Assembly: GCF_013927005.1 (NCBI RefSeq)
Contig: NZ_CP055930.1
Location: 3,968,001 to 4,032,000, forward strand
Reading direction: 5' to 3'
DNA length: 64,000 bases
DNA from: Enterobacter sp. RHBSTW-00175
Lineage (GTDB): Bacteria > Pseudomonadota > Gammaproteobacteria > Enterobacterales > Enterobacteriaceae
The position numbers were made by a program, and so were the translations under genes. Positions 9,355 through 36,190 of the stretch are shown here, in pieces. The notes beneath the pieces were generated by a model. It was not told where the DNA came from and did not search any database. It saw only the letters and a list, made by a program, of their open reading frames with translations. Numbering within the stretch: position 1 is the stretch's first letter; the number at the start of each line of letters is the position of its first letter.

Positions 9355-9442
9355 GGAAGCGTGGCCGAGCGGTTGAAGGCACCGGTCTTGAAAACCGGCG
9401 ACCCGAAAGGGTTCTAGAGTTCGAATCTCTACGCTTCCGCCA
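9355..9442 (+). tRNA. serT: tRNA-Ser (anticodon UGA), copy 1
   Basis: The 88-nt class II tRNA starts GGAAGCGTGG and has encoded CCA at 9440-9442. The anticodon loop CTTGAAA gives anticodon TGA, and the variable arm CGACCCGAAAGGGTTC is the long one typical of tRNA-Ser. It lies downstream of yccA, as serT does in E. coli (with one gene in between here), so this copy is probably the ancestral one. Confidence 0.97.
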
Positions 9443-16216: not shown

Positions 16217-16304
16217 GGAAGCGTGGCCGAGCGGTTGAAGGCACCGGTCTTGAAAACCGGCGACCCGAAAGGGTTCTAGAGTTCGAATCTCTACGCTTCC
16301 GCCA
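16217..16304 (+). tRNA. serT: tRNA-Ser (anticodon UGA), copy 2
   Basis: Identical in all 88 nt to the gene at 9355-9442, including the encoded CCA. It is a second intact serT copy, 6862 bases downstream of the first. Confidence 0.97.
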
Positions 16305-16684: not shown

Positions 16685-16709
16685 GAGCACAAATTCACAC
16701 AGGAGAAAT

Positions 16710-16751
16710 ATGTTGGACAGTCACCCTTACTTAAACATCAAGGCAAGCTGA
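16710..16751 (+). CDS. mgtM: mgtC leader peptide 1 (MgtM-like)
   Basis: A 13-codon ORF (MLDSHPYLNIKAS) sits directly behind AGGAGA, just inside the predicted transcript. In Salmonella the mgtC leader has a first short ORF, mgtM, whose translation couples ATP level to transcription into mgtC. Position, ribosome-binding site and following hairpin (TGCT-GCC / GGCAGCA, about 16769-16790) fit that role. Assignment is by position, not sequence match. Confidence 0.62.
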   Translation: MLDSHPYLNIKAS

Positions 16752-16856
16752 CGCTATTTTTTCTGCGCTGCTTGCCAACCGGCGGGCAGCAATCTCCTCA
16801 TCCAGACGATTGCATCCCATAAAGAATAACGCAGCATGGCTGCGAGGATAATCGTC

Positions 16857-22649: not shown

Positions 22650-22661
22650 CTTGCCCCTCCG

Positions 22662-23696
22662 TCATACCAGGAAAAATTCGCCAAAGCCCATCTTTTTCAA
22701 CCCACGGCGGTAGGCAATAGAGCTTCTGTCCGCAGGTATATGGGCTTCCAGGGTCAAATCCAGCGGCAGGCTTTCCGGGCGCTGGGTTTCCACCATCAGG
22801 CGATCTTCCTCAAAGATGCGCAGATTAAAGGCGTGAACATCCTCCACCGGAATATGCAGGTCAACGTTGCGCGCAATAGGAGCGAACATCCGCGTTACGC
22901 GTGCTGACACGGGCGATGCAGCATTCATGATAACCAGCCGGGAATCGCCCGGAAAATGGATGGTTAGCGTGGCGGTAAACGGCAGATGCATTTCAAAATG
23001 ACGCAGCCATTCGAAACCTTCTGGTGCCTGTACATCCGAACTGGCGGGGTAGTTACTCACCGAGCTCCAGTAATCGGCGACAAAGCCAAAGGCGGTCTCC
23101 TGCGGCTGATAGGCGGGCACCTGCTGGTTATCCGGGTCGGCAAAGGTGGATGTGTGGATCCACGCGAAATGGGCGACATCGAGAAACCCCTCGACCTGGC
23201 GACCGGCAAAACCGTTCACCTCAAACGCCGGGCAGTTGATCTGCTGAAAACCGTCGTCATCCCAGTGCGGCATGGTGGGTAGCGGCACCGGGTTTTCCGG
23301 GTCAAACGCCAGACAGGTCCAGATCAGGCCAAAGCGCTCTTCCACGGCGTAGTTAATCAGATTTAGTTTCGCCGGTACGGGCTGGTCAGGGCTGGAGGGA
23401 ATACGGTTGCAGCGGCCATCTTCCCCAAAGCGTAAGCCATGATAGGGGCAAATAATCCCGTGTTCATCGTGAAAGCCCAGCGTCAGCGGCACGCCGCGAT
23501 GGGGACAAACGTCCCGGGCGACCACCACCTGATCGTTAATCCGGTAGATAACCAGCTGTTCATCCAGCAGGGTGGCTTTTACCGGTGCCGGGCCGATGTC
23601 GCACGCCCGGGCAACCGGGTGCCAGCATTTTGCCAGGCGCAGCCAGTCCTCTGGCTCAAACGTGCAATGGGCAGGTGGTGTTGGGTGTTTTATCAT
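22662..23696 (-). CDS. hpxD: HpxD, Rieske non-haem iron oxygenase component
   Basis: The 344-residue oxygenase has a Rieske cluster CPH-X16-CPYH (Cys64, His66, Cys83, His86) and a mononuclear iron site DVAHFAWIH at about residues 170-180. Together with HpxE it oxidises hypoxanthine and xanthine to urate. The ATG at 23696 (MIKHPTPPAH) has a textbook AGGAGGG before it and replaces a longer in-frame start that would overlap hpxO. It is the middle gene of the hpxO-hpxD-hpxE operon. Confidence 0.88.
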   Translation of the reverse strand: MIKHPTPPAHCTFEPEDWLRLAKCWHPVARACDIGPAPVKATLLDEQLVIYRINDQVVVARDVCPHRGVPLTLGFHDEHGIICPYHGLRFGEDGRCNRIPSSPDQPVPAKLNLINYAVEERFGLIWTCLAFDPENPVPLPTMPHWDDDGFQQINCPAFEVNGFAGRQVEGFLDVAHFAWIHTSTFADPDNQQVPAYQPQETAFGFVADYWSSVSNYPASSDVQAPEGFEWLRHFEMHLPFTATLTIHFPGDSRLVIMNAASPVSARVTRMFAPIARNVDLHIPVEDVHAFNLRIFEEDRLMVETQRPESLPLDLTLEAHIPADRSSIAYRRGLKKMGFGEFFLV

Positions 23697-23713
23697 GGTT
23701 GTCCCTCCTGTGT

Positions 23714-24868
23714 TCAGCCTAATGGGCCACCCTGAATGGTGTCGCACAGACCGTTAATAATGCGCTCGCCGGTCTCTTCGCTGAGCTCCTGATACCAGGC
23801 CCGGGTCAGCGCCATATCTTTACCGTGCGTGATATCGCAACGTTTGCGGGCTTTCAGCACCAGGTCGCGAACCCGGTCACAGCGCAGCGCTTCGTACTGG
23901 CGCAGTGCCAGCGTAATGTTGTGGTTGTCGCGCACGCAGTCGCCCAGCACCACGGCATCCTCCATGGCGGCACAACCGCCCTGGCCGATATCCGGTGTGG
24001 TGCTGTGTCCCGCATCACCCAGCAGCGCCACTTTGCCGCGTACCAGGCTGTCGAACGGCTCAATATCGTGGATTTCGATGCGGTTGGTCGTCTCAGGATC
24101 CAGCGCGGCGATAAGCTTCTGCACCGGCGGTGCCCAGCCGCGGAAATAGCCGCTGAGATCGGCTTTAAGGGTAAGACGATCTTCCGCCAGACCGGCCGGG
24201 AGCGGGACATCGAAAAAGAAGTAGAAGCGCCCGCCGGAAACCGGCATCAGCGAGACGCGCTTACCTTCTCCGACAAACGTGGTCCACTGGTGGGCAGGGG
24301 CAATGTCCTCGTCGATCTTCACCAGACCATTCCAGTTGACGTATCCGGCGTAGCGGCGTTCTGGGGTATAACCCAGCACGTACGGGCGCACCGCCGAGTG
24401 GCTACCGTCAGCGGCAATCAGAAAATCACCGGTTGCCGTGGTGCCATCGGTAAAGGTGACGGTCACGCCCGCGTCATCTTCACGGACGCGTTCAACGCGC
24501 TTGCCGAACTGCACTGCGTCTCGCCCCCAGAAATTGAGCATTTCGCGCTGCAATTCGGCTCGCGAGACAGGGCAGGGACGACCGCCGGTGCGCGCCACCA
24601 GCGGAGCAAGGCTAAAGCGGGTCAGGGTATCGCCGCGCAGGTGATCCTTATACGCCATAAAACGCATTGGCCCGCCGTAGGTTTCCATCATGTCGCCCAT
24701 GCCAAGATGCTGCATACATTTCACCCCGTTGGGCCAGATGGAGATGGCCGCGCCAACGGGTTTGATCTCTTTCACGGCCTCAAAGACGGTACAGTCGATC
24801 CCGGCTTTCTTTAACGCCACGGCCGCGCTCAGACCACCAATTCCCGCTCCAATGACAATCGCTTTCAT
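23714..24868 (-). CDS. hpxO: HpxO, FAD-dependent urate hydroxylase
   Basis: The 384-residue flavoprotein monooxygenase has an N-terminal FAD motif GAGIGGLSAAVALKKAG, an RPCPVSRAEL region, the DG-type motif LIAADGSHSAVRPYVLGY, and GDAGHSTTPDIGQGGCAAMEDA. Klebsiella HpxO uses NADH and FAD to oxidise urate to 5-hydroxyisourate, replacing the cofactor-free uricase. GGAGAGAAGC precedes the ATG. It is the first gene of the operon, behind a -24/-12 promoter candidate, and divergent from hpxQT, which process its product. Confidence 0.93.
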   Translation of the reverse strand: MKAIVIGAGIGGLSAAVALKKAGIDCTVFEAVKEIKPVGAAISIWPNGVKCMQHLGMGDMMETYGGPMRFMAYKDHLRGDTLTRFSLAPLVARTGGRPCPVSRAELQREMLNFWGRDAVQFGKRVERVREDDAGVTVTFTDGTTATGDFLIAADGSHSAVRPYVLGYTPERRYAGYVNWNGLVKIDEDIAPAHQWTTFVGEGKRVSLMPVSGGRFYFFFDVPLPAGLAEDRLTLKADLSGYFRGWAPPVQKLIAALDPETTNRIEIHDIEPFDSLVRGKVALLGDAGHSTTPDIGQGGCAAMEDAVVLGDCVRDNHNITLALRQYEALRCDRVRDLVLKARKRCDITHGKDMALTRAWYQELSEETGERIINGLCDTIQGGPLG

Positions 24869-24901
24869 GCTTCTCTCCTTTTGCAGGGTGTAATGAGAGT
24901 G

Positions 24902-24917
24902 AGCAATTTGCGTACCA
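24902..24917 (-). promoter_or_regulatory. Sigma-54 (-24/-12) promoter of hpxODE
   Basis: On the minus strand TGGTACGCAAATTGCT matches TGGYAC-N5-TTGCW fully, with GG and GC at the required spacing. Transcription would begin about 22 bases before the hpxO start. Confidence 0.72.
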
Positions 24918-24957
24918 GGATGCAGAGTGAAGAAAAGGGCGTTGTGATGGGTCGTTA

Positions 24958-24974
24958 TGCACTGCTAAGGTGCG
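24958..24974. promoter_or_regulatory. NtrC-type enhancer site between hpxO and hpxQ
   Basis: TGCACT-GCTAA-GGTGCG matches the NtrC consensus TGCACY-N5-GGTGCA at all but the last base. It lies about 40 bases upstream of the hpxO -24 element and about 85 bases upstream of the hpxQ -24 element, so one site could serve both promoters. Confidence 0.65.
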
Positions 24975-25059
24975 TTATTACGGTGAGAGTGCCTGTTTAT
25001 GAATCAATAATTTCCAGTTTTGCTCTGCGGAATCGACTGTTTCATGTCCGGCATAAGAG

Positions 25060-25075
25060 TGGCGTGTTTTGTGCA
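25060..25075 (+). promoter_or_regulatory. Sigma-54 promoter of hpxQT
   Basis: TGGCGTGTTTTGTGCA has the invariant GG and GC ten bases apart, with three deviations from TGGCAC-N5-TTGCA. The predicted start is about 35 bases upstream of hpxQ. The decamer TTTTGTGCAA around the -12 is repeated 12 bases downstream. Confidence 0.55.
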
Positions 25076-25120
25076 ATGTTTTGTGCAACAGGGCCGAAGG
25101 ATGATTTCAACGGAGCGACC

Positions 25121-25621
25121 ATGACAGCACTGCATGACTTTAATCAACAGCGATACGAAGACGCGCTGGCACGCTTACTGCCCTGCGTGGCGATCCCCGC
25201 CTGGGCCGAGGCACTGGTGCGCGGGCGTCCTTATCCTGGCCGGGATGCACTGTTTGACGCCGCCAGCTCGCTGGCACAGCGCTGGGATGAAGATGCCCTG
25301 ACGCTTGCCCTGAGCGCGCACCCGCGTATCGGTGAGAAACCCGCGGGCACGCAGGCCGAGGCGGTGCTTTCGCGTCAGGAGCAGGGAGCCGTTAACGAAA
25401 GCGACGCGGCGCTCGCCCGGGCATTGCGGGAAGGCAACGCCCGCTACGAGGCGCGCTTCGGGCGCGTGTTTCTGATCCGTGCGAAAGGCCGCAGCGGAGA
25501 AGACATTTTACAGGCGCTGGAACGGCGGCTGAAAAACACCGACGCGCAGGAAGTGCAGGCCGCACTGGAACAACTGCGGGAAATTACCTTATTACGGCTG
25601 GAAGGAGTGATTGGCGAATGA
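25121..25621 (+). CDS. hpxQ: HpxQ, OHCU decarboxylase
   Basis: The 166-residue enzyme decarboxylates 2-oxo-4-hydroxy-4-carboxy-5-ureidoimidazoline to S-allantoin. Family features are the all-helical sequence with the catalytic His in LSAHPRIGEKPAG and the following EQGAV, and the late FLIRAKGRSGEDIL. The ATG at 25121 (MTALHDFNQQRYEDAL) has CGGAG upstream; a longer in-frame start from 24881 would run through the divergent promoter region and adds nothing conserved. It overlaps hpxT by ATGA. Confidence 0.93.
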   Translation: MTALHDFNQQRYEDALARLLPCVAIPAWAEALVRGRPYPGRDALFDAASSLAQRWDEDALTLALSAHPRIGEKPAGTQAEAVLSRQEQGAVNESDAALARALREGNARYEARFGRVFLIRAKGRSGEDILQALERRLKNTDAQEVQAALEQLREITLLRLEGVIGE

Positions 25622-25941
25622 GCACCCTAAGCACCCATATTCTGGATATTTCGACAGGAAAACCCGCCCAGGGCGTAACCGTTCGTCTGGAACGGGACGG
25701 GCTGGTGATTGCCACCGGGACGACCAACAGCGCCGGGCGTATTACGGAATTCGTGGCGCACCTGCCGGCAGGCCGTTACCGGCTGGTGGCCGACATTGGT
25801 GCATGGTTTTTCCAGACCGGGCGCGAAACGATTTACCCCTGTGCGCAGATTGATTTTGTCACTAAAGAGGCGGCAGACGAGCACTATCATCTGCCGTTTG
25901 TGATTGCGCCAGGCGGGTGGTCAACCTACCGCGGCAGTTGA
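25618..25941 (+). CDS. hpxT: HpxT, 5-hydroxyisourate hydrolase
   Basis: The 107-residue transthyretin-like protein hydrolyses 5-hydroxyisourate to OHCU. Signature elements are the N-terminal LSTHILDISTGKPAQGV (catalytic His), the central RYRLVADIGAWF, and the C-terminal tetrapeptide YRGS that defines the enzyme against true transthyretins. It starts inside the hpxQ stop (ATGA, translational coupling). Its last 21 bases overlap the convergent guaD gene. Confidence 0.95.
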   Translation: MSTLSTHILDISTGKPAQGVTVRLERDGLVIATGTTNSAGRITEFVAHLPAGRYRLVADIGAWFFQTGRETIYPCAQIDFVTKEAADEHYHLPFVIAPGGWSTYRGS

Positions 25942-27240
25942 CCACACCTGCTCGCCGTTGACCCAGGTTTCACTGATATTACGCTCGTCGCCGAGCGTCA
26001 TCAGCACAAACAGCTGCTCGTAAATATCTTTGCAGCGCCCGTTACGCAGGCGCTGCAGCGGCGTAACGGCCGGGTCGATAACGATAAAGTCGGCCTCTTT
26101 GCCAGGCGCAAAATTGCCAATCTTATCGTCCAGCCGCAGGGCGTGTGCGCCACCCAGGGTGGCATGATAAAACGCTTCGCAGGCTTGCAGGCGGTAGCTC
26201 TGCAACTGGCCCACTTTGTAGGCCTCACCCAGCGTACGCAACATGCTGAAGGTGGTACCGGCCCCGACGTCGGTGCCTATACCCATTCGCACCTTGTGCT
26301 GCCAGCAGGCGGGTAAACGAAACAGCCCGCTGCCAAGAAACAGGTTGGAGGTTGGGCAAAATGCCACGGCGGAACCGGTGTCGTGCAGGCACTGCCACTC
26401 GCTGTGGTGCAGGTGAATGCCGTGAGCAAATACGCTGCGCTCGCCGGTCAGGCCGTAGTGGTGATACACATCCAGATAACGCTCGTGCTCCGGCCACAGA
26501 TCGCTCACCCACGCCACTTCGTTGGGGTTTTCGCTCAGATGGGTCTGCATCCAGGTGTCGGGAAACTCCTCTCTGAGCAGGCTTACCGCCGCGAGCAGTT
26601 CCGGGGAAGAGGTTGGCGCAAAACGCGGCGTAATGGCATAGCCTAAGCGCCCGCGGTGGTGCCAGCGCTGAATAAGCTCCCGCGTTTGCCGGTAGCTCTG
26701 TTTGGCGGTTTCAGTCAGGTAATCCGGCGTGTGCCTGTCCATCATTACTTTCCCGGCAATCAGCCGCATGTTGAGGCGTAATGCTTCGGTAAACAGCGCA
26801 TCGACAGATTCGGGGTGCAGTGTGCAAAACACCAGCGCCGTGGTTGTGCCGTGGCTGACCAGCTGATTAATGAAAAACTCCGCGATCTCTTTCGCGTAGG
26901 TCTCATCGGCAAACTGGCTCTCCACCGGGAAGGTGTAGGTGGTCAGCCACTCCAGCAGTTGCTCGCCAAAGGCGCCAATCATCTCCGTCTGGGGATAGTG
27001 GACGTGGGTATCGATAAAACCGGGCAGCAGTAGCTTGCTGCGCAGGTCGGTGTAACCTTTGTGAGGGTCAAGGTATTGCTCGCCCTCCTGCCAGCTCATC
27101 TGCGCCAGAATTTTGCCGTTGTGAATAAACAACAGCCCATCGTCAAGGTAGCGGGTGTGGCGGGGGATAGCCTCTGCGCTGTCGCAGACCTGGGCAATAT
27201 CGAAAAATGCACCGCGGATCGCTGTCTGGTAATCCATCAT
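25921..27240 (-). CDS. guaD: Guanine deaminase
   Basis: The 439-residue amidohydrolase converts guanine to xanthine and ammonia, feeding guanine into the hpx route. Metal and catalytic motifs are PGFIDTHVHYPQTEMIG (HxH), HLSENPNEV, FAHGIHLHHSEW and GIGTDVGAGTTFSML (Asp). CAGGAACC precedes two in-frame ATGs (27240 and 27237); either may start the protein. It has its own -24/-12 promoter candidate and is convergent with hpxT, sharing 21 bases. Confidence 0.95.
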   Translation of the reverse strand: MMDYQTAIRGAFFDIAQVCDSAEAIPRHTRYLDDGLLFIHNGKILAQMSWQEGEQYLDPHKGYTDLRSKLLLPGFIDTHVHYPQTEMIGAFGEQLLEWLTTYTFPVESQFADETYAKEIAEFFINQLVSHGTTTALVFCTLHPESVDALFTEALRLNMRLIAGKVMMDRHTPDYLTETAKQSYRQTRELIQRWHHRGRLGYAITPRFAPTSSPELLAAVSLLREEFPDTWMQTHLSENPNEVAWVSDLWPEHERYLDVYHHYGLTGERSVFAHGIHLHHSEWQCLHDTGSAVAFCPTSNLFLGSGLFRLPACWQHKVRMGIGTDVGAGTTFSMLRTLGEAYKVGQLQSYRLQACEAFYHATLGGAHALRLDDKIGNFAPGKEADFIVIDPAVTPLQRLRNGRCKDIYEQLFVLMTLGDERNISETWVNGEQVWSTAAVG

Positions 27241-27281
27241 GGTTCCTGCCTTATTGTTTGCGTAGCGGGGTCAGGAGAATG

Positions 27282-27297
27282 AGCAAAAAGGATGCCA
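27282..27297 (-). promoter_or_regulatory. Sigma-54 promoter of guaD
   Basis: On the minus strand TGGCATCCTTTTTGCT matches TGGCAY-N5-TTGCW completely. The predicted start lies about 30 bases upstream of guaD. Confidence 0.7.
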
Positions 27298-27307
27298 GCT
27301 TGAGAAA

Positions 27308-27328
27308 GGCCGCAGAAGGTCTGCGGCC
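27308..27328 (-). terminator. Hairpin terminator of the NCS1 permease gene
   Basis: The perfect 9-bp stem GGCCGCAGA / TCTGCGGCC with a 3-base loop lies 12 bases after the permease stop on the minus strand. The following T's are interrupted (TTTCTC), so efficiency is uncertain. Confidence 0.65.
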
Positions 27329-27339
27329 AGGTGAAAGGA

Positions 27340-28836
27340 TTACTCTTTTTGCGTCGCCACGCGGGAGTTGAATTGCGGGGCGGCAGCCGCTTCGCGGTCT
27401 TCCCGTGCCAGCCAGCGGTAAGTCACACCGCCCAGGAAGACGCCGATAAACCAGCTAAAGTTCGCCACTTCATGCAGGGCCGGGATAAAGCTAATCACCA
27501 GGCCTACGGCAACGGACGGGAGCAGTGCGCCGATGGCTTTCGGGTTAAAGCCGTTGCGATACCAGTATTTCCCTTTTGGCGTGTCGTCGAACAGGTCATC
27601 TACAGAGATTTTCCCGCGCTTAATCAGGTAGAAGTCGGCAATCAGGATGCCGAACAGCGGGCCGATAAAGGCGCCGAGCACGTCCAGGGTGTAGTGGATA
27701 AGCTCCGGAGAGTTGAACAGGTTCCACGGGGTTAACAGGATCGAGCCGACAGCGGCAATCATCCCTCCGGTGCGGAAGCTGATTTTCTGCGGCGAGCAGT
27801 TAGAAAAGTCGAACGCCGGGGAGACAAAGTTCGCCACAATGTTGATCCCGATGGTGGCGGTGATCATGGTCAGCAGGCCAATCGCCACGGCCAGATCGTT
27901 GCCCACGCGGCTAACGGTTTCAATCGGGTCGGTTATCATGCGGCCAAACAGCGACTGCGTGCCGGAGACAATCACCACGGTGACGATGGAAAACAGCAGG
28001 AAGTTAAACGGCAAGCCCCAGCGGTTTCCACGGCGAATTTCGCCCATGCTTTTGCCGTAGCGCGAGAAGTCACCAAAGTTGAGCAACGGTCCGGAGAAAT
28101 AGGACACCACCAGTGCCGTAGCAGTGATCATCTGCCAGGTTTGCTCGCCTGCGCTCAGGGATTTGCTGGCGAGGGTAAAGGAGATCCCGTCAAAACCCGT
28201 CTTGTATACAATCCAGCCCGCAAGCGCCAGCATCACCACATAGACCGCCGGGCCGGCAATATCGATAAAACGCTTAATGGCGCTCATACCGTGCCAGAAG
28301 ACCATCGCCTGCAATACCCACATAATGGAAAAGCAGATCCAGCCCAGATGCGACAGGCCAAGGAACGCACCGGTAGTGAGCGCCGACAGTGACGGCCAGA
28401 ACTTCAGCGCCACCAGCATCAGGGCGTTGGCGGCCAGGTAGGTCTGAATACCGTACCACGCAAAGGCGATAAGCCCGCGGATCACCGCCGGAATATTCGC
28501 GCCAAAAACACCAAATGCCTGACGGCTGATCACCGCATAAGGCACGCCCGCCATCTGGCTCGGTTTTGCCACCAGGTTGGCGCACAGCTGCACAATACAA
28601 ATCCCTATCAGCAGGCAAAGCAACACCTGCCAGCTGGCCAGCCCGAGCGTAAAGAAGCTCGCGGCAACCACATAACCCCCCATGCTATGCACGTCGGACA
28701 TCCAGAAAGAAAAGATGTTGTACCAGCTCCAGTTCTGGTCACGCGTTGGTGCCAGATCCTCATTGCAAAGCCGTGGGCTGTAAACCGCACCGGAATCAGC
28801 GGCCGAACCTTGCTGCGCGTTTTGTGTATTTGGCAT
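27340..28836 (-). CDS. NCS1-family nucleobase/allantoin:cation symporter
   Basis: The 498-residue inner membrane protein has about twelve hydrophobic segments. The NCS1 signatures are NWSWYNIFSFWMSDVHSMGGYV near the N terminus and IADFYLIKRGKI near the C terminus. Relatives include allantoin permease PucI/AllW and hydantoin permeases. It lies between guaD and the allantoin genes hpxSAB, so allantoin or a purine is the likely substrate. In Klebsiella the purine permease HpxP of this pathway belongs to another family, so I give no symbol. AGGAGCAGG precedes the ATG, and a -24/-12 element lies about 50 bases upstream. Confidence 0.85.
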   Translation of the reverse strand: MPNTQNAQQGSAADSGAVYSPRLCNEDLAPTRDQNWSWYNIFSFWMSDVHSMGGYVVAASFFTLGLASWQVLLCLLIGICIVQLCANLVAKPSQMAGVPYAVISRQAFGVFGANIPAVIRGLIAFAWYGIQTYLAANALMLVALKFWPSLSALTTGAFLGLSHLGWICFSIMWVLQAMVFWHGMSAIKRFIDIAGPAVYVVMLALAGWIVYKTGFDGISFTLASKSLSAGEQTWQMITATALVVSYFSGPLLNFGDFSRYGKSMGEIRRGNRWGLPFNFLLFSIVTVVIVSGTQSLFGRMITDPIETVSRVGNDLAVAIGLLTMITATIGINIVANFVSPAFDFSNCSPQKISFRTGGMIAAVGSILLTPWNLFNSPELIHYTLDVLGAFIGPLFGILIADFYLIKRGKISVDDLFDDTPKGKYWYRNGFNPKAIGALLPSVAVGLVISFIPALHEVANFSWFIGVFLGGVTYRWLAREDREAAAAPQFNSRVATQKE

Positions 28837-28887
28837 GAAACCTGCTCCTGTGAATGAAAACCCGTTAAGTGGGAGTACAAGCGGTGT

Positions 28888-28903
28888 TGCAGGATCCAGG
28901 CCA
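28888..28903 (-). promoter_or_regulatory. Possible sigma-54 promoter of the NCS1 permease
   Basis: On the minus strand TGGCCTGGATCCTGCA has the invariant GG and GC at correct spacing but three mismatches elsewhere. It is the weakest of the six candidates in the hpx region. Confidence 0.45.
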
Positions 28904-28915
28904 AAATAATAAATC

Positions 28916-28948
28916 TTGTATGCAATATTTTATTTTTATGTATACGAT
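28916..28948 (+). promoter_or_regulatory. hpxSAB promoter with two candidate HpxS (GntR) operators
   Basis: TTGTATGCAA (28916-28925) and ATGTATACGAT (28938-28948) are near-palindromes around GTAT-AC/GC. FadR-subfamily GntR proteins often bind such sequences. Their centres are 22 bases apart, about two DNA turns. TTGTAT also works as a -35 with TGTATA 17 bases on, so bound HpxS would cover the promoter of its own operon and sit between the divergent permease and hpxS genes. Confidence 0.5.
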
Positions 28949-28980
28949 CCGATAGCGAAAAGTAAAAAATGGAGTGGGTA

Positions 28981-29697
28981 ATGAACAACGTAAACAGTCT
29001 GCACGCCGCGCCAGACCTGCAAGACAAAGACGAATCCATCTTTCAGGCGCTGATGACCGCGATTGTCGAACATCAGTTGCTGCCGGGGAGTAAATTGCCG
29101 GAAGAGGCGCTGGCCGAAGTCTTCGGCGTGAGCCGCACGGGCATCCGCAAGGTGCTGCAACGACTCGCGGCTGTGCAAATGGTCACGTTAACGCCCAAAC
29201 GTGGTGCACATGTTGCCAGCCCGACGGTAGAAGAGGCACAGCACATCTTTCGCACGCGCGCCCTGCTGGAGGTCGCCAACCTGCCGGACGTGCTGGCCCA
29301 CTGCCAGTCGCCACATCTTGCTGCACTAGAAGCCATTATTGCTCAGGAGCAGCAGGCGCACGAGGCGTACGACGGCCCGGCGGCAATCCGACACTCTGCC
29401 AATTTCCATATCCAGCTTCAGGCCATTTCCGGCAACCAGGTGCTGACGGAGATGGTGACAAGCCTTAGCCAGCGTTCATCGCTGGTGATTGCCGCGTGGG
29501 GCGCGCCGTGGCGTCAGGGTTGCCGCTGCAACGATCACGAACAGCTTGTGGATCTGCTGCGCCAGAAAGCGCTCCGGCCACTCAGCGATGCCTTAATGCA
29601 CCATTTTGAACATATCGTCGCCAGCCTCTGTTTTGAACGGGCGGGCGAGTGCCTTCCTGATTTTGCCCGGCTGTTTGCCGGCCACAAGGAGTCGTAA
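28981..29697 (+). CDS. hpxS: HpxS, GntR/FadR-family regulator of allantoin genes
   Basis: The 238-residue regulator has a winged helix (LPEEALAEVFGVSRTGIRKVLQRLAAVQMV, about residues 36-70) and a helical FCD-type ligand domain (EEAQHIFRTRALLEVANL onward, with conserved His in the late helices). The ATG at 28981 was chosen because GGAGTGGG lies just before it; an in-frame ATG 12 bases upstream lacks such a site. The stop overlaps the hpxA start by 1 base (TAATG), so hpxS, hpxA and hpxB form one operon as in Klebsiella. It likely senses an allantoin-pathway compound. Confidence 0.85.
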   Translation: MNNVNSLHAAPDLQDKDESIFQALMTAIVEHQLLPGSKLPEEALAEVFGVSRTGIRKVLQRLAAVQMVTLTPKRGAHVASPTVEEAQHIFRTRALLEVANLPDVLAHCQSPHLAALEAIIAQEQQAHEAYDGPAAIRHSANFHIQLQAISGNQVLTEMVTSLSQRSSLVIAAWGAPWRQGCRCNDHEQLVDLLRQKALRPLSDALMHHFEHIVASLCFERAGECLPDFARLFAGHKES

Positions 29698-30440
29698 TGT
29701 CGTCTGTCTGTATACAAGTGATCAATCCCAATACCAGCCGTGGAATGACGGAAACCATCGGCGCGGCAGCGCGCGCGGTGGCAGCGCCGGGCACGGAGAT
29801 CCTCGCGGTCTGCCCGGATGAAGGTGTGCCCTCGATTGAAGGCCATTTTGATGAAGCCATTGCGGCCGTAGGGGTGCTCGAACAAATCAAGAAAGGCAGG
29901 CAGCAGGGCGTGGATGGCCACGTTATCGCCTGCTTTGGCGATCCGGGTTTGCTGGCGGCGCGCGAGCTGGCGCAGGGGCCGGTGATTGGTATCGCAGAAG
30001 CCGCCATGCATATGGCGACGCTGGTGGCGACACGCTTTTCCATCGTCACCACGCTGCCGCGTACGCTGATCATCGCCCGGCACCTGCTGCACCAGTATGG
30101 CTTTCATGATCACTGCGCGGCCCTGCACGCGATCGATCTCCCGGTGCTGGCGCTGGAAGACGGCAGTGGTCTGGCGCAGGAAAAAGTACGCGCACGCTGT
30201 ATCCAGGCACTGAAAGAGGACGGTTGCGGCGCCATTGTGCTGGGGTGTGGCGGTATGGCAACGCTTGCGCAGGAGCTGACGCGCGAGCTGCATGTCCCGG
30301 TGATCGACGGCGTTAGCGCGGCGGTGAAAATGGTCGAATCGCTGGTGGCACTTGGGCTATCCACCAGCAAGCACGGCGACCTGGCATTCCCGGAAAACAA
30401 AGCGTTAAGCGGTAAATTTCAGGCACTGAATCTATTTTAA
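29697..30440 (+). CDS. hpxA: HpxA, allantoin racemase
   Basis: The 247-residue enzyme of the Asp/Glu/hydantoin racemase family interconverts the S and R forms of allantoin. The two catalytic cysteines sit in IACFGDPG (Cys79) and VLGCGGMA (Cys184), and the N terminus INPNTSRGMTETI is typical. It begins on the last base of hpxS (TAATG), so translation is coupled. A racemase is needed here because HpxQ yields S-allantoin while the next enzyme may prefer the other isomer. Confidence 0.92.
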   Translation: MSSVCIQVINPNTSRGMTETIGAAARAVAAPGTEILAVCPDEGVPSIEGHFDEAIAAVGVLEQIKKGRQQGVDGHVIACFGDPGLLAARELAQGPVIGIAEAAMHMATLVATRFSIVTTLPRTLIIARHLLHQYGFHDHCAALHAIDLPVLALEDGSGLAQEKVRARCIQALKEDGCGAIVLGCGGMATLAQELTRELHVPVIDGVSAAVKMVESLVALGLSTSKHGDLAFPENKALSGKFQALNLF

Positions 30441-30456
30441 TTATGAGGGGGCCACA

Positions 30457-31389
30457 ATGGCGCTTTTTGAACAGGATTACCCGCGGGATCTGCGTGGCTA
30501 CGCAGGCAACCCGCCGCACGCGCAGTGGCCGCAGCAGGCGCGTATTGCCGTGCAGTTTGTGCTTAATTACGAAGAAGGGGCCGAAAACCACGTACTACAC
30601 GGTGACGCCGGATCGGAACAGTTCCTGTCAGACATCATCGGCGCGGCCAGCTACCCGGACAAACATATGTCGATGGACTCTCTCTACGAATACGGCAGTC
30701 GCGCCGGGTTCTGGCGGATCCACAACGCTTTCAGCCAGCGCGGCCTGCCGCTGACGGTCTTTGGCGTGGCGATGGCGCTGGCGCGTCATCCCGATATTGT
30801 CGACGCCATTAAAGCGGCAAATTACGATGTGGTCAGCCACGGCTGGCGCTGGATCCACTATCAGAATATGGATATCGACCAGGAGCGTGAGCATCTGCAA
30901 AAGGCGGTGCATGTGATGACCGATCTGTTCGGCAAACCGCCGACGGGCTGGTATACCGGGCGCGACAGCCCCAACACTCGTCAACTGGTGGCGGAACACG
31001 GCGGTTTTGACTACGACAGCGACTACTACGGCGACGATTTACCGTTCTGGACCGAAGTGGCGTGCAGCGACGGTACCCGCAAACCGCACCTGATTGTGCC
31101 TTATACGCTGGATACCAACGACATGCGCTTTGCGACCGCACAAGGATTTAATACCGCCGAGCAGTTTTATACCTACCTGAAAGACAGTTTTGATGTGCTG
31201 TATGAAGAGGGGGCAAGTTCGCCGAAGATGATGTCTATCGGGATGCACTGCCGCCTGCTGGGGCGTCCGGGGCGTTTTCGCGGCCTGCAACGGTTTCTCG
31301 ATTATATCCAGCAGCACGACAAGGTATGGGTCTGCACCCGCCAGCAAATTGCCGACCACTGGCGGGAAGTGCATCCGTTTCAAAAATAG
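30457..31389 (+). CDS. hpxB: HpxB, metal-independent allantoinase (PuuE type)
   Basis: The 310-residue protein of the polysaccharide-deacetylase-like fold hydrolyses allantoin to allantoate. Family motifs are FVLNYEEGAENHVLHGD, the MDSLYEYGSRAGFWRIH stretch, SHGWRWIHYQ and GWYTGRDSPNTRQL, with SIGMHCRLLGRPGR near the end. It is unrelated to the AllB amidohydrolase type. GAGGGGG is 7-10 bases before the ATG. It is the last gene of hpxSAB, and a REP element follows. Confidence 0.92.
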   Translation: MALFEQDYPRDLRGYAGNPPHAQWPQQARIAVQFVLNYEEGAENHVLHGDAGSEQFLSDIIGAASYPDKHMSMDSLYEYGSRAGFWRIHNAFSQRGLPLTVFGVAMALARHPDIVDAIKAANYDVVSHGWRWIHYQNMDIDQEREHLQKAVHVMTDLFGKPPTGWYTGRDSPNTRQLVAEHGGFDYDSDYYGDDLPFWTEVACSDGTRKPHLIVPYTLDTNDMRFATAQGFNTAEQFYTYLKDSFDVLYEEGASSPKMMSIGMHCRLLGRPGRFRGLQRFLDYIQQHDKVWVCTRQQIADHWREVHPFQK

Positions 31390-31403
31390 CGGTGTCGTAT
31401 TGT

Positions 31404-31431
31404 GCCGGGTGGCGGCTGCGCCTTACCCGGC
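31404..31431. repeat. REP element between convergent hpxB and hpxZ
   Basis: GCCGGGT and ACCCGGC arms surround GGCGGCTGCGCC. It lies between the tails of two convergent operons and is likely a transcript 3' boundary. Confidence 0.78.
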
Positions 31432-31446
31432 CTACGACTCTCCACA

Positions 31447-31833
31447 TTACGCCATCAAACTCACCTGCGCCGCCACAATCCGCCAGCCGTACGGGAAACG
31501 CACCCACGTTTGCTGCTGGCGGCCAATTTTCTCCGTCCCCTCGCGGGTAAATTCGGTGCTGCACACCGCATAATCAGCCCCGAAGGTGGTGATGACCGTA
31601 TGACGCAGGGTTCGCTGCAACCCGGCGGAAGGGCGCGCCGCACGAAAGGCGCGGATTTCATCAATCCCGTACAGGTTTTCACCTGCGCCCAGCCGCACCG
31701 TATTTTTGTCGTGCCAGAACAGTTCATCCAGCACCGCAGTGTTGTTACTTACCAGCGCATCTTCGTAGCGGTAAAACGCAGCCGTGACCTCAGCAACCAC
31801 CCACGGGAGGTTTACGTCATCATGATTCATCAT
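31447..31833 (-). CDS. hpxZ: HpxZ, SnoaL/NTF2-like protein (AtzH-like)
   Basis: The 128-residue protein has an NTF2/SnoaL-type fold (VAEVTAAFYRYEDALVSNNTAVLDELFW; WRIVAAQVSLM). It resembles the DUF3225/AtzH group that accompanies AtzE-type amidases. It is the last gene of hpxWXYZ and overlaps hpxY by 4 bases. AtzH in Pseudomonas has been assigned to cyanuric-acid breakdown. The exact role of HpxZ after oxalurate is not established. Two adjacent ATGs (31833, 31830) are possible starts. Confidence 0.85.
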   Translation of the reverse strand: MMNHDDVNLPWVVAEVTAAFYRYEDALVSNNTAVLDELFWHDKNTVRLGAGENLYGIDEIRAFRAARPSAGLQRTLRHTVITTFGADYAVCSTEFTREGTEKIGRQQQTWVRFPYGWRIVAAQVSLMA

Positions 31834-33227
31834 TGTGCTATCTCCGCAGGGCGGGCATCGGTTATCCCGCTTGCTTCCAGTACTCGCGCCACGCGCAGGC
31901 AGGCCTGTTCATTAAACGGCGCGGCAATCAGTTGCAGGCCAATGGGGGCACCGTCTGCCGTGCGCAGGGGCACCGTGGTGACGGGCAAGCCCAAAAACGA
32001 AATCGGCTGAGTCAGCATTCCCATGCTGGCGCGGACCGGCAGTGGCTGGCCGTTAATCTCCATGGTCTGCTCACCAATCAGCGTGGCGCTGCGGGGTGTC
32101 GCCGGAGCAATCAGCACATCGGCGTAGGAGAATAACGTTTTAAACGCCTGCCGGGCGTGGGCGCGGAAACGCTGGGCCTGAATGTACCAGGCGGATGGGA
32201 TCATCGCCCCTGCCAGTAGCCGCTCGCGGGAGTGAGGCTCAAATCGTGCGGGCTCGCTTCGCAGCGCAGGCAGGTACTGATTTCCCCCTTCGGACGCGCT
32301 GATGATAAACGCCGCTGAGCGGGCAAGCTCTGCGTCGGGGAACAGCAGTTCATCGTGCGCCTCGAGCGCTTTCGCCACCCGTGCAACGGCAGCCCGGGCG
32401 TCGGCGTCACACCATGTGCTGAAATAGCCGCCCAGAACAGCGCAGCGCAGGCCATCCAGCCCGCGATCCAGCAGCGGGCGGGTTTGCTCTCGTGAGCTGT
32501 CGGCCTGAAAACTGTCGCTGGTGTCGCGGCCTTGCAGCGCATCGTATACCGATGCCAGGTCGCTCACGCGGCGGGCAAACGGCCCGATATGATCCAGGCT
32601 TGCAACGAACGGATGGCTGCCCGAACGTGACAGGCGGCCAAAGGTCGGTTTCAGGCCATATATCCCGCACAGGGAGGCCGGTACGCGAATCGAGCCGTTA
32701 GTGTCAGTGCCGAGCGAAAAATGGACCAGCCCGGCGGCGACGGCCGCAGCCGATCCCCCGGACGATCCTCCCGCAATGCGCTTCAGATCGTGCGGGTTAT
32801 GCGTTGCGCCGTAGTGGCTGTTTTCGGTGGTAAACCCGTAGGCGTAAGCATCCATGTTGACCATCCCGGAAAGCAGCCCGCCCGCACTGCGCAGCTGGCG
32901 TACCGCAAAGCTGTCGGCGGCAGCAGCAGGGCGCTGGCTGAACAGTTCAGCCCCGGCGAGGGTGGTGTGCCCGGCGACATCAAACAGGTTTTTGACCGCA
33001 TAAGGAATGCCCGCCAGCGGCGGCAGGGGGCGCTTTTCCCGACGCAGGGTGTCGATATTCTCGGCTTCTGCCAGCATTCGTTCGGCGGTGATCGTCGTCC
33101 ACGCGTTGAGCTGTGGGTTGATGCGGGTAATGGCATCCAGCGTCTGACGGGCGATGTCACCGGCGCTCAGCTCGCCGTTGCCAAGCGCCTTCTGGATAGC
33201 GCTGATACTCATCTCGTGTAGCGTCAT
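31830..33227 (-). CDS. hpxY: HpxY, amidase-signature hydrolase (AtzE/GatA-like)
   Basis: The 465-residue amidase has the Ser-cisSer-Lys triad: Lys79 in IPYAVKNLFD, Ser155 in AGGSSGGSAA, and Ser178 in TDTNGSIR. It probably hydrolyses an amide or ureido bond downstream of oxalurate. In K. pneumoniae hpxWXYZ is linked to conversion of oxalurate to oxalate, and HpxW is oxamate amidohydrolase, which leaves oxalurate hydrolysis to HpxY. It overlaps hpxX at its start and hpxZ at its end by 4 bases each, typical of a coupled complex. Confidence 0.87.
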   Translation of the reverse strand: MTLHEMSISAIQKALGNGELSAGDIARQTLDAITRINPQLNAWTTITAERMLAEAENIDTLRREKRPLPPLAGIPYAVKNLFDVAGHTTLAGAELFSQRPAAAADSFAVRQLRSAGGLLSGMVNMDAYAYGFTTENSHYGATHNPHDLKRIAGGSSGGSAAAVAAGLVHFSLGTDTNGSIRVPASLCGIYGLKPTFGRLSRSGSHPFVASLDHIGPFARRVSDLASVYDALQGRDTSDSFQADSSREQTRPLLDRGLDGLRCAVLGGYFSTWCDADARAAVARVAKALEAHDELLFPDAELARSAAFIISASEGGNQYLPALRSEPARFEPHSRERLLAGAMIPSAWYIQAQRFRAHARQAFKTLFSYADVLIAPATPRSATLIGEQTMEINGQPLPVRASMGMLTQPISFLGLPVTTVPLRTADGAPIGLQLIAAPFNEQACLRVARVLEASGITDARPAEIAQ

Positions 33228-33412
33228 GCTTTGTATACTCCTGCAATCTCCTGGCGGTCATCGAGCGGTAACGCCATCAGCGGTGCGGCCATGCTGGCTA
33301 TGCGGCTGAACTGCAACTGAAGCTCCGCCCGACGGGCGTCATCCAGTTCAACGCCCAGCACGGATTCCATCTGCGCAAGGTATGCGCTCCAGTCGGGTGG
33401 TGTGGTGTTCAT
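33224..33412 (-). CDS. hpxX: HpxX, small AtzG/GatC-like partner of HpxY
   Basis: The 62-residue helical protein (MNTTPPDWSAYLAQMESVLG...) resembles AtzG, the GatC-like subunit that wraps the AtzE amidase. The ATG at 33412 has AGGAG 6-10 bases upstream, just after the hpxW stop; a longer in-frame start would run into hpxW coding sequence. It overlaps hpxY by 4 bases. A stable HpxX-HpxY complex is inferred from the family. Confidence 0.85.
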   Translation of the reverse strand: MNTTPPDWSAYLAQMESVLGVELDDARRAELQLQFSRIASMAAPLMALPLDDRQEIAGVYKA

Positions 33413-33422
33413 GGTTTTCTCC

Positions 33423-35006
33423 TCAGTATCCGGCGGCAGAGCCGTTGCTGCGTGGGTCGAATGCCCCTTCAAGCAGGCCGTTGGGATGGCGAACAATCGC
33501 CCCCGCGTGCCCCATGGCTTCGCTAAAGTCCGGGAACACTTCTGTTTCGTGGCCCAGCGCCTGCAAGCGCGCGAGCGTCTGCGATGAGACGCGTCCTTCC
33601 AGTTTTAAGGTGTCGGAAGTTTGTCCCCAGGTGCGTCCCAGCAGCCAGCGCGGCAGGCTGATGCTCTCCTGAAGCGGCACGCCCTGCACCACATAGCGGG
33701 TGAACAGCGCCGCCTGGGTTTGCGGCTGTCCGTCTCCTCCCATCGAGCCATAGACCATCACGCGCCCGTCGTGCAGGCGTGCGGCTGCCGGGTTCAGAGT
33801 ATGGAAAGGCTGCTTACCCGGAGCCAGCGCCAGAAGATGAGCCGGGTTGAGGCTGAAAGAGGCTCCCCGGTTTTGCCAGACGATCCCGGTATCCGGCAGA
33901 ACCACGCCGCTGCCGAACTCGTGATAAATACTCTGGATAAACGAGACGGCAAGCCCGCTGTTATCCATTACCCCCATCCATACCGTGTCACCAGGGCCTT
34001 TGCCGGTGCCCCATTGGGCGGCCTGGCTGTCGTTGACCCGCGCAGCGAGCGCATCCAGCTCGGCGGGGGCCAGCAGGCTCTGGGTATCGGTTTTCAGTTC
34101 TCGTGGATCGGTAATATGGCTATCGCGCAGGCCGAAGGCCAGCTTGGTGGCTTCGACGATGCGGTGAATGGTGGTGGCCTCGTCGGCATCGGCCATCCCC
34201 AGCCGGTCGGTTATCCCGAGTATCGCCAGCGATACCAGCCCCTGCGTCGGCGGGGCAAGATTCCAGACGTCACCCTGCTGATGCTGCAATTTCAGCGGCG
34301 TGGTGCGCCGGGCGACGTGCGCATTCAGGTCTGCAAGGGTCACGGGCAGACCGAGCTCCTCCATTCCACGGGCCAGACATTCCGCCAGCGGGCCACGATA
34401 AAAGCTGTCCAGACCTTCGTCCGCCAGGCGTTTCAGGGTGGTGGCCATCGCCGGTTGGTAAAAACGGCTCCCGGCCTGAGGTGGTTTACCGTCGATAAGC
34501 CAGGTTTCTGCAAAACCAGGCAGGTCTTTCAGTTCGTCAAATTTACTCGCCGTGGCGCTGGCCTGCGATGCGGTGACCGGCGTGCCGTTTTGCGCGTAGT
34601 CAATGGCATCTGCCAGCAGGCGTGCCAGCGGCAGCGCGGTGCCATGCATTTCCTGCGACACCTTAAGGGCTTCGTCCCAGCCGCTGACCGTTCCGGCCAC
34701 GGTCAGCGCCGCGCGCGGGCCGCGATGGGGGATCTGCGTCAGGCCATCATAGGCCGCAAGCGTCGCCAGCGAGCCTGCCGCGCCGCTGGCGTCAATGGCA
34801 ATGGGTTCACCGCCGGGCGGGACGATAAGCCAGAAGCCATCGCCACCCAGGCCATTCATATGGGGATAAACCACTGCGATGGTGGCTGCGGCGGCCACCA
34901 TGGCTTCAATGGCGCTGCCGCCTTCGCGCAGAATTGCCAGCGCGCTCTGGCTGGCAAGATGGTGGGGCGCTACGGCCATTCCGTGTGTGGAGACATTACT
35001 GTGCAT
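33423..35006 (-). CDS. hpxW: HpxW, oxamate amidohydrolase (gamma-glutamyltransferase-like)
   Basis: The 527-residue Ntn-hydrolase proenzyme should cleave itself before Thr341 (KGPGD/TVWMGVMD) to create the N-terminal nucleophile. The K. pneumoniae homologue converts oxamate to oxalate and ammonia. Other family landmarks are GGDGFWLIVPPGGEPIAIDA and the late VYGSMGGDGQPQTQAALF. No signal peptide is seen, unlike periplasmic Ggt, which supports a cytoplasmic role. It is the first gene of hpxWXYZ and divergent from hpxU. Confidence 0.9.
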   Translation of the reverse strand: MHSNVSTHGMAVAPHHLASQSALAILREGGSAIEAMVAAAATIAVVYPHMNGLGGDGFWLIVPPGGEPIAIDASGAAGSLATLAAYDGLTQIPHRGPRAALTVAGTVSGWDEALKVSQEMHGTALPLARLLADAIDYAQNGTPVTASQASATASKFDELKDLPGFAETWLIDGKPPQAGSRFYQPAMATTLKRLADEGLDSFYRGPLAECLARGMEELGLPVTLADLNAHVARRTTPLKLQHQQGDVWNLAPPTQGLVSLAILGITDRLGMADADEATTIHRIVEATKLAFGLRDSHITDPRELKTDTQSLLAPAELDALAARVNDSQAAQWGTGKGPGDTVWMGVMDNSGLAVSFIQSIYHEFGSGVVLPDTGIVWQNRGASFSLNPAHLLALAPGKQPFHTLNPAAARLHDGRVMVYGSMGGDGQPQTQAALFTRYVVQGVPLQESISLPRWLLGRTWGQTSDTLKLEGRVSSQTLARLQALGHETEVFPDFSEAMGHAGAIVRHPNGLLEGAFDPRSNGSAAGY

Positions 35007-35041
35007 GGGGAGTCCTCATGACCCTGAAAGTCACAAGGTGC

Positions 35042-35057
35042 TGCAAAAGCTGTTCCA
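35042..35057 (-). promoter_or_regulatory. Sigma-54 promoter of hpxWXYZ
   Basis: On the minus strand TGGAACAGCTTTTGCA differs from TGGCAC-N5-TTGCA at one base. The predicted transcript start is about 25 bases before hpxW. Confidence 0.68.
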
Positions 35058-35060
35058 GTT

Positions 35061-35135
35061 CTGAAAGAAAAGTTTCAGTAAACTGGCACGGATAATGAAA
35101 CGTATAATAAAAGGCAAAATGTGATGAAACAAAAG
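35061..35135. promoter_or_regulatory. Candidate HpxU operators between hpxW and hpxU
   Basis: Three related elements are present: the palindrome CTGAAA-gaaaag-TTTCAG (35061-35078), ATGAAAC (35095-35101) and ATGAAACAAAAG (35124-35135). A TATAAT at 35103-35108 between them could be the -10 of hpxU, allowing autoregulation. The 12-mer recurs exactly, inverted, before hpxF. Confidence 0.5.
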
Positions 35136-35148
35136 TTACAGAGGCGCT

Positions 35149-35988
35149 ATGGAACAGTTAGATGAACGTCTGAAAGGGCAGTACGCGTCATTGTCGCCGC
35201 AGGAGCAGCGCGTGGCCGATTTTATCTTCGATCACTTTGACGACCTTATAAGCTATAACAGCGCCGAGCTGGCGCAGCTTAGCGGGGTGTCGAAAGCCAC
35301 GGTGAGCCGTCTGTTTAAGCGCCTGGGCTATGAGAAATATAAAGACATGCGCGACGAACTGCGCACGCTGCGCCAGAGCGGGATGCCGTTAACCGACAAC
35401 CGTGATGCGGTGCAGGGCAACACGCTGCTGGCGCGTCACTATAAGCAGGAGATGGCGAACCTGACACAGTGGGTGAATGCGCTTGATGCACATCAGTTTG
35501 CCGAGGCCATGGCCTGCATGGTGAAGGCACGGCGGGTGGTGATTATCGGGATGCGCAATGCGTATCCGGCGGCGCTGCACCTGCGCCAGCAGCTGTTACA
35601 GGCCCGCGGGCAGGTGCTGGTGCTACCCCAGCCAGGGCAGAGCCTGAGTGAAGAGCTGGTGGATTTAACCGCCGACGATCTGGTGGTGATGATGGCGTTT
35701 CGCCGCCGCCCGCGCATTATCCGCCCGCTGATGCAGCAGCTTCAGAGCCGTGGGGTTCCGGTGCTGCTGATGTGCGAGCCGCAGGCCCACAGCCTGTTCC
35801 CGCTGGCGAGCTGGCAGCTCTGTGCCCCGCTGGACAGCGTATCGGCCTATGACAGCTACTCTTCGGTGAACAGCCTGATTAACCTGCTGGCGAACGCCTT
35901 CCTGCATGAGATCCTCGATAAAGGCCGCCCGCGTATTCACGAGATAGCCTCCCTTTATCAGCAGCTGGATGAGCTGGAGCAACGATAA
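35149..35988 (+). CDS. hpxU: HpxU, RpiR-family transcriptional regulator
   Basis: The 279-residue protein has an N-terminal RpiR helix-turn-helix (LSPQEQRVADFIFDHF; SAELAQLSGVSKATVSRLFKRLGYEKYKDM) and a C-terminal SIS domain (about 125-260, RVVIIGMRNAYPAALHLRQQL), which usually binds phosphosugars but here likely senses a pathway compound. GAGGCGCTATG gives the start. It sits between hpxW (divergent) and hpxF (same strand) with its own terminator, the right place to control both operons. The symbol follows Klebsiella usage and is less certain than the family. Confidence 0.78.
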   Translation: MEQLDERLKGQYASLSPQEQRVADFIFDHFDDLISYNSAELAQLSGVSKATVSRLFKRLGYEKYKDMRDELRTLRQSGMPLTDNRDAVQGNTLLARHYKQEMANLTQWVNALDAHQFAEAMACMVKARRVVIIGMRNAYPAALHLRQQLLQARGQVLVLPQPGQSLSEELVDLTADDLVVMMAFRRRPRIIRPLMQQLQSRGVPVLLMCEPQAHSLFPLASWQLCAPLDSVSAYDSYSSVNSLINLLANAFLHEILDKGRPRIHEIASLYQQLDELEQR

Positions 35989-36009
35989 TGGGGCGCCAGG
36001 CTGGTGCTT

Positions 36010-36026
36010 TGCATTAAATTGGTGCA
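36010..36026 (+). promoter_or_regulatory. NtrC-type enhancer site upstream of hpxF
   Basis: TGCATT-AAATT-GGTGCA has both conserved half-sites (TGCA...GGTGCA) of the 17-bp NtrC consensus. It lies about 100 bases upstream of the hpxF -24 element, a usual enhancer distance. Confidence 0.62.
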
Positions 36027-36030
36027 ATAA

Positions 36031-36065
36031 AACGGGGTGAAAAGGCCAGTTCTTTTCGCCCCGTT
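36031..36065 (+). terminator. Terminator of hpxU
   Basis: A 14-bp stem AACGGGGTGAAAAG / CTTTTCGCCCCGTT (one G-U pair) with a 7-base loop and T-rich sequence after it lies about 40 bases past the hpxU stop. It separates hpxU from the hpxF operon. Confidence 0.8.
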
Positions 36066-36122
36066 GTCATTTATTCCTCGTGATATCTGCCTTTCAAACA
36101 AAATTTGCCGTTTTGCTTCGCC

Positions 36123-36138
36123 TGGCACATTAGTTGCA
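36123..36138 (+). promoter_or_regulatory. Sigma-54 promoter of hpxFGHIJK
   Basis: TGGCACATTAGTTGCA is a perfect match to TGGCAC-N5-TTGCA, the best of the six in the window. The predicted transcript start near 36150 is about 40 bases before hpxF. Confidence 0.82.
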
Positions 36139-36156
36139 AAAGTTAATTCAAAGAAT

Positions 36157-36168
36157 CTTTTGTTTCAT
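36157..36168 (-). promoter_or_regulatory. Candidate HpxU operator before hpxF
   Basis: CTTTTGTTTCAT is the exact reverse complement of ATGAAACAAAAG at 35124-35135. It overlaps the first transcribed bases of the hpxF operon, a position suited to repression. Confidence 0.5.
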
Positions 36169-36190
36169 GCTAACGTAACGGGTAAACACC

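Follow-up and report, generated by a model that had tools for sequence, protein, structure and literature searches.

We analysed 64,000 nucleotides of Enterobacter sp. RHBSTW-00175 (contig NZ_CP055930.1, positions 3,968,001 to 4,032,000; hereafter the window), and within them an 11.3-kb stretch (24869..36190) that carries the hpx cluster for purine catabolism. Sigma-54 promoters are predicted to drive six transcription units of purine catabolism there. NtrC, which is phosphorylated and acts under nitrogen shortage, would work from one site that hpxO and hpxQ have in common and from a pair of sites upstream of hpxF. Pathway intermediates would be sensed apart from nitrogen, through HpxU-type operators at hpxW, hpxU and hpxF and through a weaker tandem pair in the hpxO-hpxQ gap. 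Finally, with hpxR lost and hpxDE located behind hpxO, hypoxanthine oxidation is now probably under nitrogen control. As a single account, this combination of six sigma-54 units, NtrC sites, an HpxU layer and a shift of hpxDE to nitrogen control appears highly probable to us; the binding, transcription starts and regulation it predicts would fit the positions, scores, conservation and gene order that we observed.

Sigma-54 elements at six purine-catabolic units

The genome (5.57 Mb) is Enterobacter-like, its HpxO shares 98% identity with the Enterobacter soli protein, and it encodes RpoN, NtrC and NAC. Gene identities were assigned from NCBIfam and Pfam, and the hpx gene names follow Klebsiella usage. 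The sigma-54 matrix was built from 17 sites in 16 Escherichia coli MG1655 stretches (gltI was left out) upstream of sigma-54-dependent genes; leave-one-out scores of the training sites ranged from 11.5 to 19.2.

Re-reading of the sequence located the six -24/-12 elements of the initial annotation, together with its two NtrC-like 17-mers (24958-24974 and 36010-36026), exactly where it had placed them. All six elements are intergenic and oriented toward their genes, and their 3' ends lie 33-52 nt ahead of start codons (Table 1). Five of the six reach the score range of the known E. coli sites and the hpxQ element, which ends 45 nt ahead of the hpxQ start codon at 25121, falls below it. A further match facing hpxU at 35084 (+), with a score of 11.9, was dropped because the -12 GC is missing.

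Table 1. Predicted regulatory elements and selected genes of the hpx cluster (window coordinates)
Feature	Position	Strand	Sequence, score or basis
sigma-54 element of hpxO-hpxD-hpxE	24902-24917	-	TGGTACGCAAATTGCT; score 14.3
sigma-54 element of hpxQT	25060-25075	+	TGGCGTGTTTTGTGCA; low matrix score 3.35
sigma-54 element of guaD	27282-27297	-	TGGCATCCTTTTTGCT; score 16.0
sigma-54-like element of NCS1 permease hpxC	28888-28903	-	TGGCCTGGATCCTGCA; score 11.6
sigma-54 element of hpxWXYZ	35042-35057	-	TGGAACAGCTTTTGCA; score 13.2
sigma-54 element of hpxFGHIJK	36123-36138	+	TGGCACATTAGTTGCA; score 15.3
seventh sigma-54-like match, facing hpxSAB (set aside)	28831-28846	+	score 19.5, top of window; kept in 26/26 loci
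NtrC-like site common to hpxO and hpxQ	24958-24974		score 10.9; at least 9 in 33/36 loci (window, L011-L045)
NtrC-like pair upstream of hpxF (sites at 35992, 36010)	35992-36026		scores 11.0 and 18.1; at least 9 near hpxF in 10/12 loci
candidate NtrC-like site inside hpxS	29192-29208		at least 9 in 23/26 loci
HpxU-like palindrome copy 1 (weak), hpxO-hpxQ gap	25000-25015	+	sequence
HpxU-like palindrome copy 2, hpxO-hpxQ gap	25029-25044	+	sequence
predicted HpxU-like operator at hpxW	35062-35077		sequence
predicted HpxU-like operator ahead of hpxU	35125-35140		sequence
predicted HpxU-like operator just below hpxF element	36152-36167	+	sequence
hpxU, RpiR-type regulator	35149-35988	+	HTH_6 and SIS domains; 92% to K. 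pneumoniae protein
hpxO-hpxD-hpxE without hpxR, 17-nt hpxO-hpxD gap	21684-24868	-	gene order

Compared with random sequence, the matrix scan gave a slight excess of matches over the whole window and a strong excess by place. A first-order Markov sequence predicts 32.9 scores of at least 8, where 33 were observed, and 3.7 scores of at least 13, where there were 6; at 14 and above, 5 were found and 1.95 expected. Because this excess of high scores is small, the sigma-54 motif by itself is weak proof. For the test of place we took the best match within 200 upstream nt, with a threshold of 11.6 (the weakest of the five in-range elements), and used as controls 22 upstreams that we picked from the window and 1,995 simulated stretches. 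The threshold was reached by seven of the eight hpx units, by one of the 22 controls and by 0.95% of the simulated stretches. Of these seven units, five passed through the annotated elements, which leaves hpxS and hpxU; even when only the five are counted, the difference from the 22 controls is clear (Fisher p 0.002). The strict sigma-54 consensus occurs 10 times genome-wide (8 for the reversed control pattern), and two of these occurrences are inside the 11.3-kb stretch, where 0.02 are expected. That all matches arose by chance would agree with the near-identical observed and simulated counts at the lowest threshold, but it is contradicted by place, by orientation and by conservation across genera, and we give it hardly any credence.

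Conservation across genera is the stronger test, and the elements hold up under it. Our locus sample comprised 80 HpxO loci and, as L092-L105, a further 14 that have HpxU orthologues; the window, which is L091, was omitted from it. Counting the window, the hpxO element is the best match and of the TGG..GC type in 79 of 81 upstreams, with scores of at least 11.5 in 59. An orthologous copy of the hpxQT element is present in all 36 loci, ahead of hpxP or, where hpxP is missing, of hpxQ. The guaD element scores at least 11.5 in 41 of 44 loci (those below are L016, L019 and L073), the hpxC and hpxW elements have TGG..GC in 26/26 and 11/11 loci, respectively (at least 11.5 in 24 and 9), and the hpxF element was found in 11 of 12. 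In aligned upstreams of hpxO (n = 36), guaD (31), hpxC (25) and hpxW (11), the core columns come out top of all 16-mers; for hpxF (n = 10) the top rank goes to the 16-mer as a whole, and its core comes fifth. Given this conservation, the predicted elements other than that of the permease gene hpxC are almost certainly true sigma-54 elements, and what began as a list of motifs becomes a putative promoter map of an entire catabolic pathway, checked across genera.

In L016 and L019, guaD lies behind hpxC and the guaD-hpxC gap is 17 nt, compared with about 100 in L014 and the window. Because the gap has shrunk and the guaD element is gone, guaD in these two loci is probably read from the hpxC promoter.

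The permease gene and hpxSAB

The hpxC-hpxS gap is well conserved throughout (83% overall), and conservation of the hpxC element is therefore weaker evidence than that of the others. The same gap contains a seventh match, facing hpxSAB, which we set aside since its sequence is complementary to the ribosome site and start codon of hpxC; it may be either a genuine promoter or a by-product of that ribosome site. No clean sigma-54 promoter was found at hpxSAB, which in Klebsiella is an HpxS/NAC unit and which would here presumably be left to those two regulators.

Both matches in this gap might have been conserved for reasons unrelated to sigma-54, such as an HpxS operator or the ribosome site. 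The hpxC element carries C where A is usual and scores lowest of the five, and the general conservation of the gap and the overlap of the 28831 match with the hpxC start point in the same direction. However, the hpxC element varies in those columns where sigma-54 tolerates variation, and the TGGCCTG of this element recurs in that of hpxP. On balance we consider a non-promoter origin of the two matches unlikely, if less so than any other alternative discussed here, and we retain the hpxC element as a candidate promoter.

Of 5,426 E. coli genomes, a single one, strain H1 (NZ_CP010160.1:3402360-3405620), has a near match to the hpx region, covering guaD, the NCS1 permease gene and the GntR gene (79.9% identity over 71% of the query).

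NtrC-like sites and the extent of nitrogen control

We scored NtrC-like sites with a matrix built on seven E. coli NtrC sites. From the centre of the site common to hpxO and hpxQ to the -24 box of hpxO, the distance among 36 loci is 47-50 bp in 13, 59-61 bp in 21 and 71 bp in two, so that the spacing classes are mostly one helical turn apart. A strong, terminator-like hairpin of 15 pairs (36031-36065) follows hpxU and separates the NtrC-like pair from the hpxF element.

Several observations weigh against reading all six units as sigma-54 promoters under NtrC. The E. coli sigma-54 matrix rejects the hpxQ element (3.35), chiefly because GTGC replaces TTGC; the hpxO element is missing in L054 (Dickeya) and L089 (Alteromonas) among the 81 upstreams, and the guaD element is gone in L016 and L019 among the 44 loci checked. 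Over the whole window there are 6 NtrC-like matches of 10 or more out of 12, with 4.2 expected, and the NtrC-like sites thus stand above chance solely by place (2 within 840 intergenic nt, where 0.055 are expected) and conservation. No NtrC-like site scoring at least 9 lies within 300 nt of guaD in any of 31 loci (the window and the L011-L045 set), of hpxC in any of 26 or of hpxW in any of 11. An activator other than NtrC is also possible, because the genome encodes six further proteins whose match to the NtrC model extends past the receiver domain.

Both the absence of nearby sites and the six additional proteins would suit an alternative in which guaD, hpxC and hpxW do have sigma-54 promoters but are driven by a different enhancer-binding protein. 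So would the wider surroundings of guaD, where even within 1500 nt no site of at least 9 occurs in L011-L042 bar weak single matches in L018 and L031. Against this alternative, guaD regions of the Pantoea and Pectobacterium types do have NtrC-like sites (7 of 44 guaD loci once more distant loci, Pantoea-type and others, are included), no regulator gene of the required type was identified within the hpx cluster, and guaD of Klebsiella pneumoniae is reportedly NtrC-regulated (work by Guzman from 2011). We therefore think it improbable that another activator serves these three units, and favour an NtrC response that probably operates via farther or weaker sites. Within 1500 nt, hpxC has the NtrC-like element inside hpxS, and the pair at hpxF is some 1 kb away from hpxW; we infer that these may act on the two distant promoters and that NtrC may also control guaD. 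Five of the six codons of the hpxS-internal element are invariant, but codons 207-211 rank higher in conservation, and the element is therefore suggestive at most.

The initial annotation proposed that nearly the whole pathway is one nitrogen-limitation regulon. The six sigma-54-type elements with their orientation and the NtrC-like sites at hpxO/hpxQ and hpxF agree with this proposal. It goes too far in that guaD, hpxC and hpxW have no such site nearby and a clean sigma-54 promoter is missing at hpxSAB. The HpxU-type operators, moreover, would place several units under a further, pathway-specific control. The rut genes, which the same proposal included, do fit the nitrogen theme in substance but are not in the window: the rutA sigma-54 element (score 15.7) is at window coordinate 66817, 2.8 kb past the window end, and ends 28 nt ahead of rutA, with NtrC-like matches of 10.7 and 8.4.

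Loss of hpxR and the hpxODE arrangement

The hpxO, hpxD and hpxE genes are co-directional, with a short gap and no hpxR between them, and are predicted to form an operon; no sigma-70-like match was found on the hpxO strand at the hpxO-hpxD junction. Among loci L011-L042, hpxR lies between hpxO and hpxD in 22 of 32. In the remaining ten, L011-L019 (Enterobacter and Lelliottia) and L021, hpxR is missing and hpxD directly follows hpxO. The genus sample of 30 genomes gave a similar picture: of 16 that bear HpxO, 15 lack HpxR (scored at E<=1e-40) and hpxD adjoins hpxO in each, whereas the exception, G082, has kept both hpxR and hpxP.

The junctions themselves differ, L021 retaining a Klebsiella-like hpxD ribosome site that the Enterobacter loci do not have, and a tree of HpxO, HpxD and HpxE places L021 outside the Enterobacter clade (split support 100; 71 for the placement of L021 itself). 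These two differences make two separate losses of hpxR likely. In hpxR-keeping loci no sigma-54 element was detected ahead of hpxD (best score 2.9 in the 15 of 22 loci scored). With hpxR gone and hpxDE directly behind hpxO, hypoxanthine oxidation has probably moved from HpxR and sigma-70 to nitrogen control, and hpxDE of hpxR-less Enterobacter appears to be transcribed from the hpxO sigma-54 promoter. In Klebsiella this first oxidising enzyme answers to its substrate via its own LysR regulator; in Enterobacter it appears to answer to nitrogen starvation.

The HpxR site TCTGC-N4-GCAAA was present in just one of 15 hpxR-bearing loci (L039) and is hence useless as a marker. The hpxP gene is missing in L011-L019, L030, L034, L035, L037, L041 and L042, and the genome of the window encodes at best a 41% relative. 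In the last six of these loci hpxR is kept, and the sigma-54 element remains ahead of hpxQ.

HpxU-like palindromes

Alignment of the hpxO-hpxQ/P gap revealed further conserved blocks, namely two copies of GAATC-N5-TTTCA at a distance of 29 bp. Of the 35 loci L011-L045, 33 have one copy or more (9 of 10 letters) and 29 have both. The K. pneumoniae repressor HpxU is said to recognise TGAA-N8-TTCA and to answer to allantoate (Guzman's study of 2013). Relative to this motif, both halves are complete at 35062 and seven of eight letters match at the other four places. The pattern TGAAWC-N4-GTTTCA, with at most one mismatch, occurs at 62 distinct places in the genome (84 matches on both strands; 34 for the reversed control), and the four of these inside the 11.3-kb stretch, where 0.13 are expected, form a count that is partly circular because the pattern was derived from these sites.

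Orthologues of HpxU (E below 1e-100) were found in 15 of the 60 genomes of a family sample, including all 10 that have HpxO. The presence of HpxU failed as a predictor of the hpxO palindrome: 18 of 23 genomes have an orthologue (68-92%), and some of them, from Serratia, Rahnella, Ewingella, Pectobacterium, Dickeya and Winslowiella, have no palindrome at hpxO. Because HpxU also occurs where the hpxO upstream lacks the palindrome, we treat HpxU binding in the hpxO-hpxQ gap as a hypothesis. Induction of hpxPQT in Klebsiella is reported to require uric acid formation. Binding of HpxU between hpxO and hpxP/Q, if true, would explain this requirement and make HpxU a candidate mediator of the pathway-specific signal at hpxPQT.

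A more general possibility, which we put forward tentatively and consider less likely than not, is that repeated small deletions of local regulators or promoters (of hpxR, probably twice, and of the guaD promoter in L016 and L019) rewire enteric purine catabolism as neighbouring sigma-54 promoters take over, and that allantoate-sensing HpxU also binds the tandem sites at hpxO-hpxP/Q.

Other features of the window

Two tRNA-Ser(TGA) genes (9355-9442 and 16217-16304) flank a segment of about 6.8 kb with an ABC transporter resembling phosphonate permeases. The surroundings of the two genes, including the terminator, share 94% identity over 201 columns, and the arrangement may reflect an insertion or duplication. 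An mgtC leader RNA (16690-16800) precedes MgtC/MgtA-type genes, and an M-box magnesium riboswitch (53877-54046) precedes an MgtE-type gene.

Comparison with known systems

In the literature that we searched, mostly outside subscription papers, there was no study of Enterobacter hpx promoters and no cross-genus map of sites, and neither a loss of hpxR that brings hpxDE next to hpxO nor HpxU sites at hpxO-hpxP were mentioned. The elements described here resemble E. coli NtrC/sigma-54 promoters (glnA, glnK, rutA and others) in sequence and in distance to the start codon, and the rutA element is shared; unlike those promoters, three of the hpx promoters (guaD, hpxC and hpxW) have no local NtrC site.

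Much of the nitrogen control of hpx genes is already known from Klebsiella. Work on K. pneumoniae by de la Riva (2008) and Guzman (2011 and 2013) reportedly covers hpxPQT, guaD, hpxSAB and the allantoate cluster. The first of these studies is said to have found hpxPQT dependent on sigma-54 and the Ntr system, and the title of the last presents HpxU as an RpiR repressor of the allantoate cluster. The genes and, by our prediction, the sigma-54/Ntr control of hpxPQT and the NtrC control of guaD reported for K. pneumoniae are common to the two systems, but in the Enterobacter genome hpxR and hpxP are absent, hpxDE is behind hpxO and the clusters lie together.

In Klebsiella oxytoca M5a1, transcripts of HpxAB-HpxO-HpxWXYZ increased in nitrogen starvation relative to a single nitrogen-rich replicate, and the authors suggest NtrC and sigma-54 on the basis of promoter sequences left as 'data not shown' (PMC8381380).

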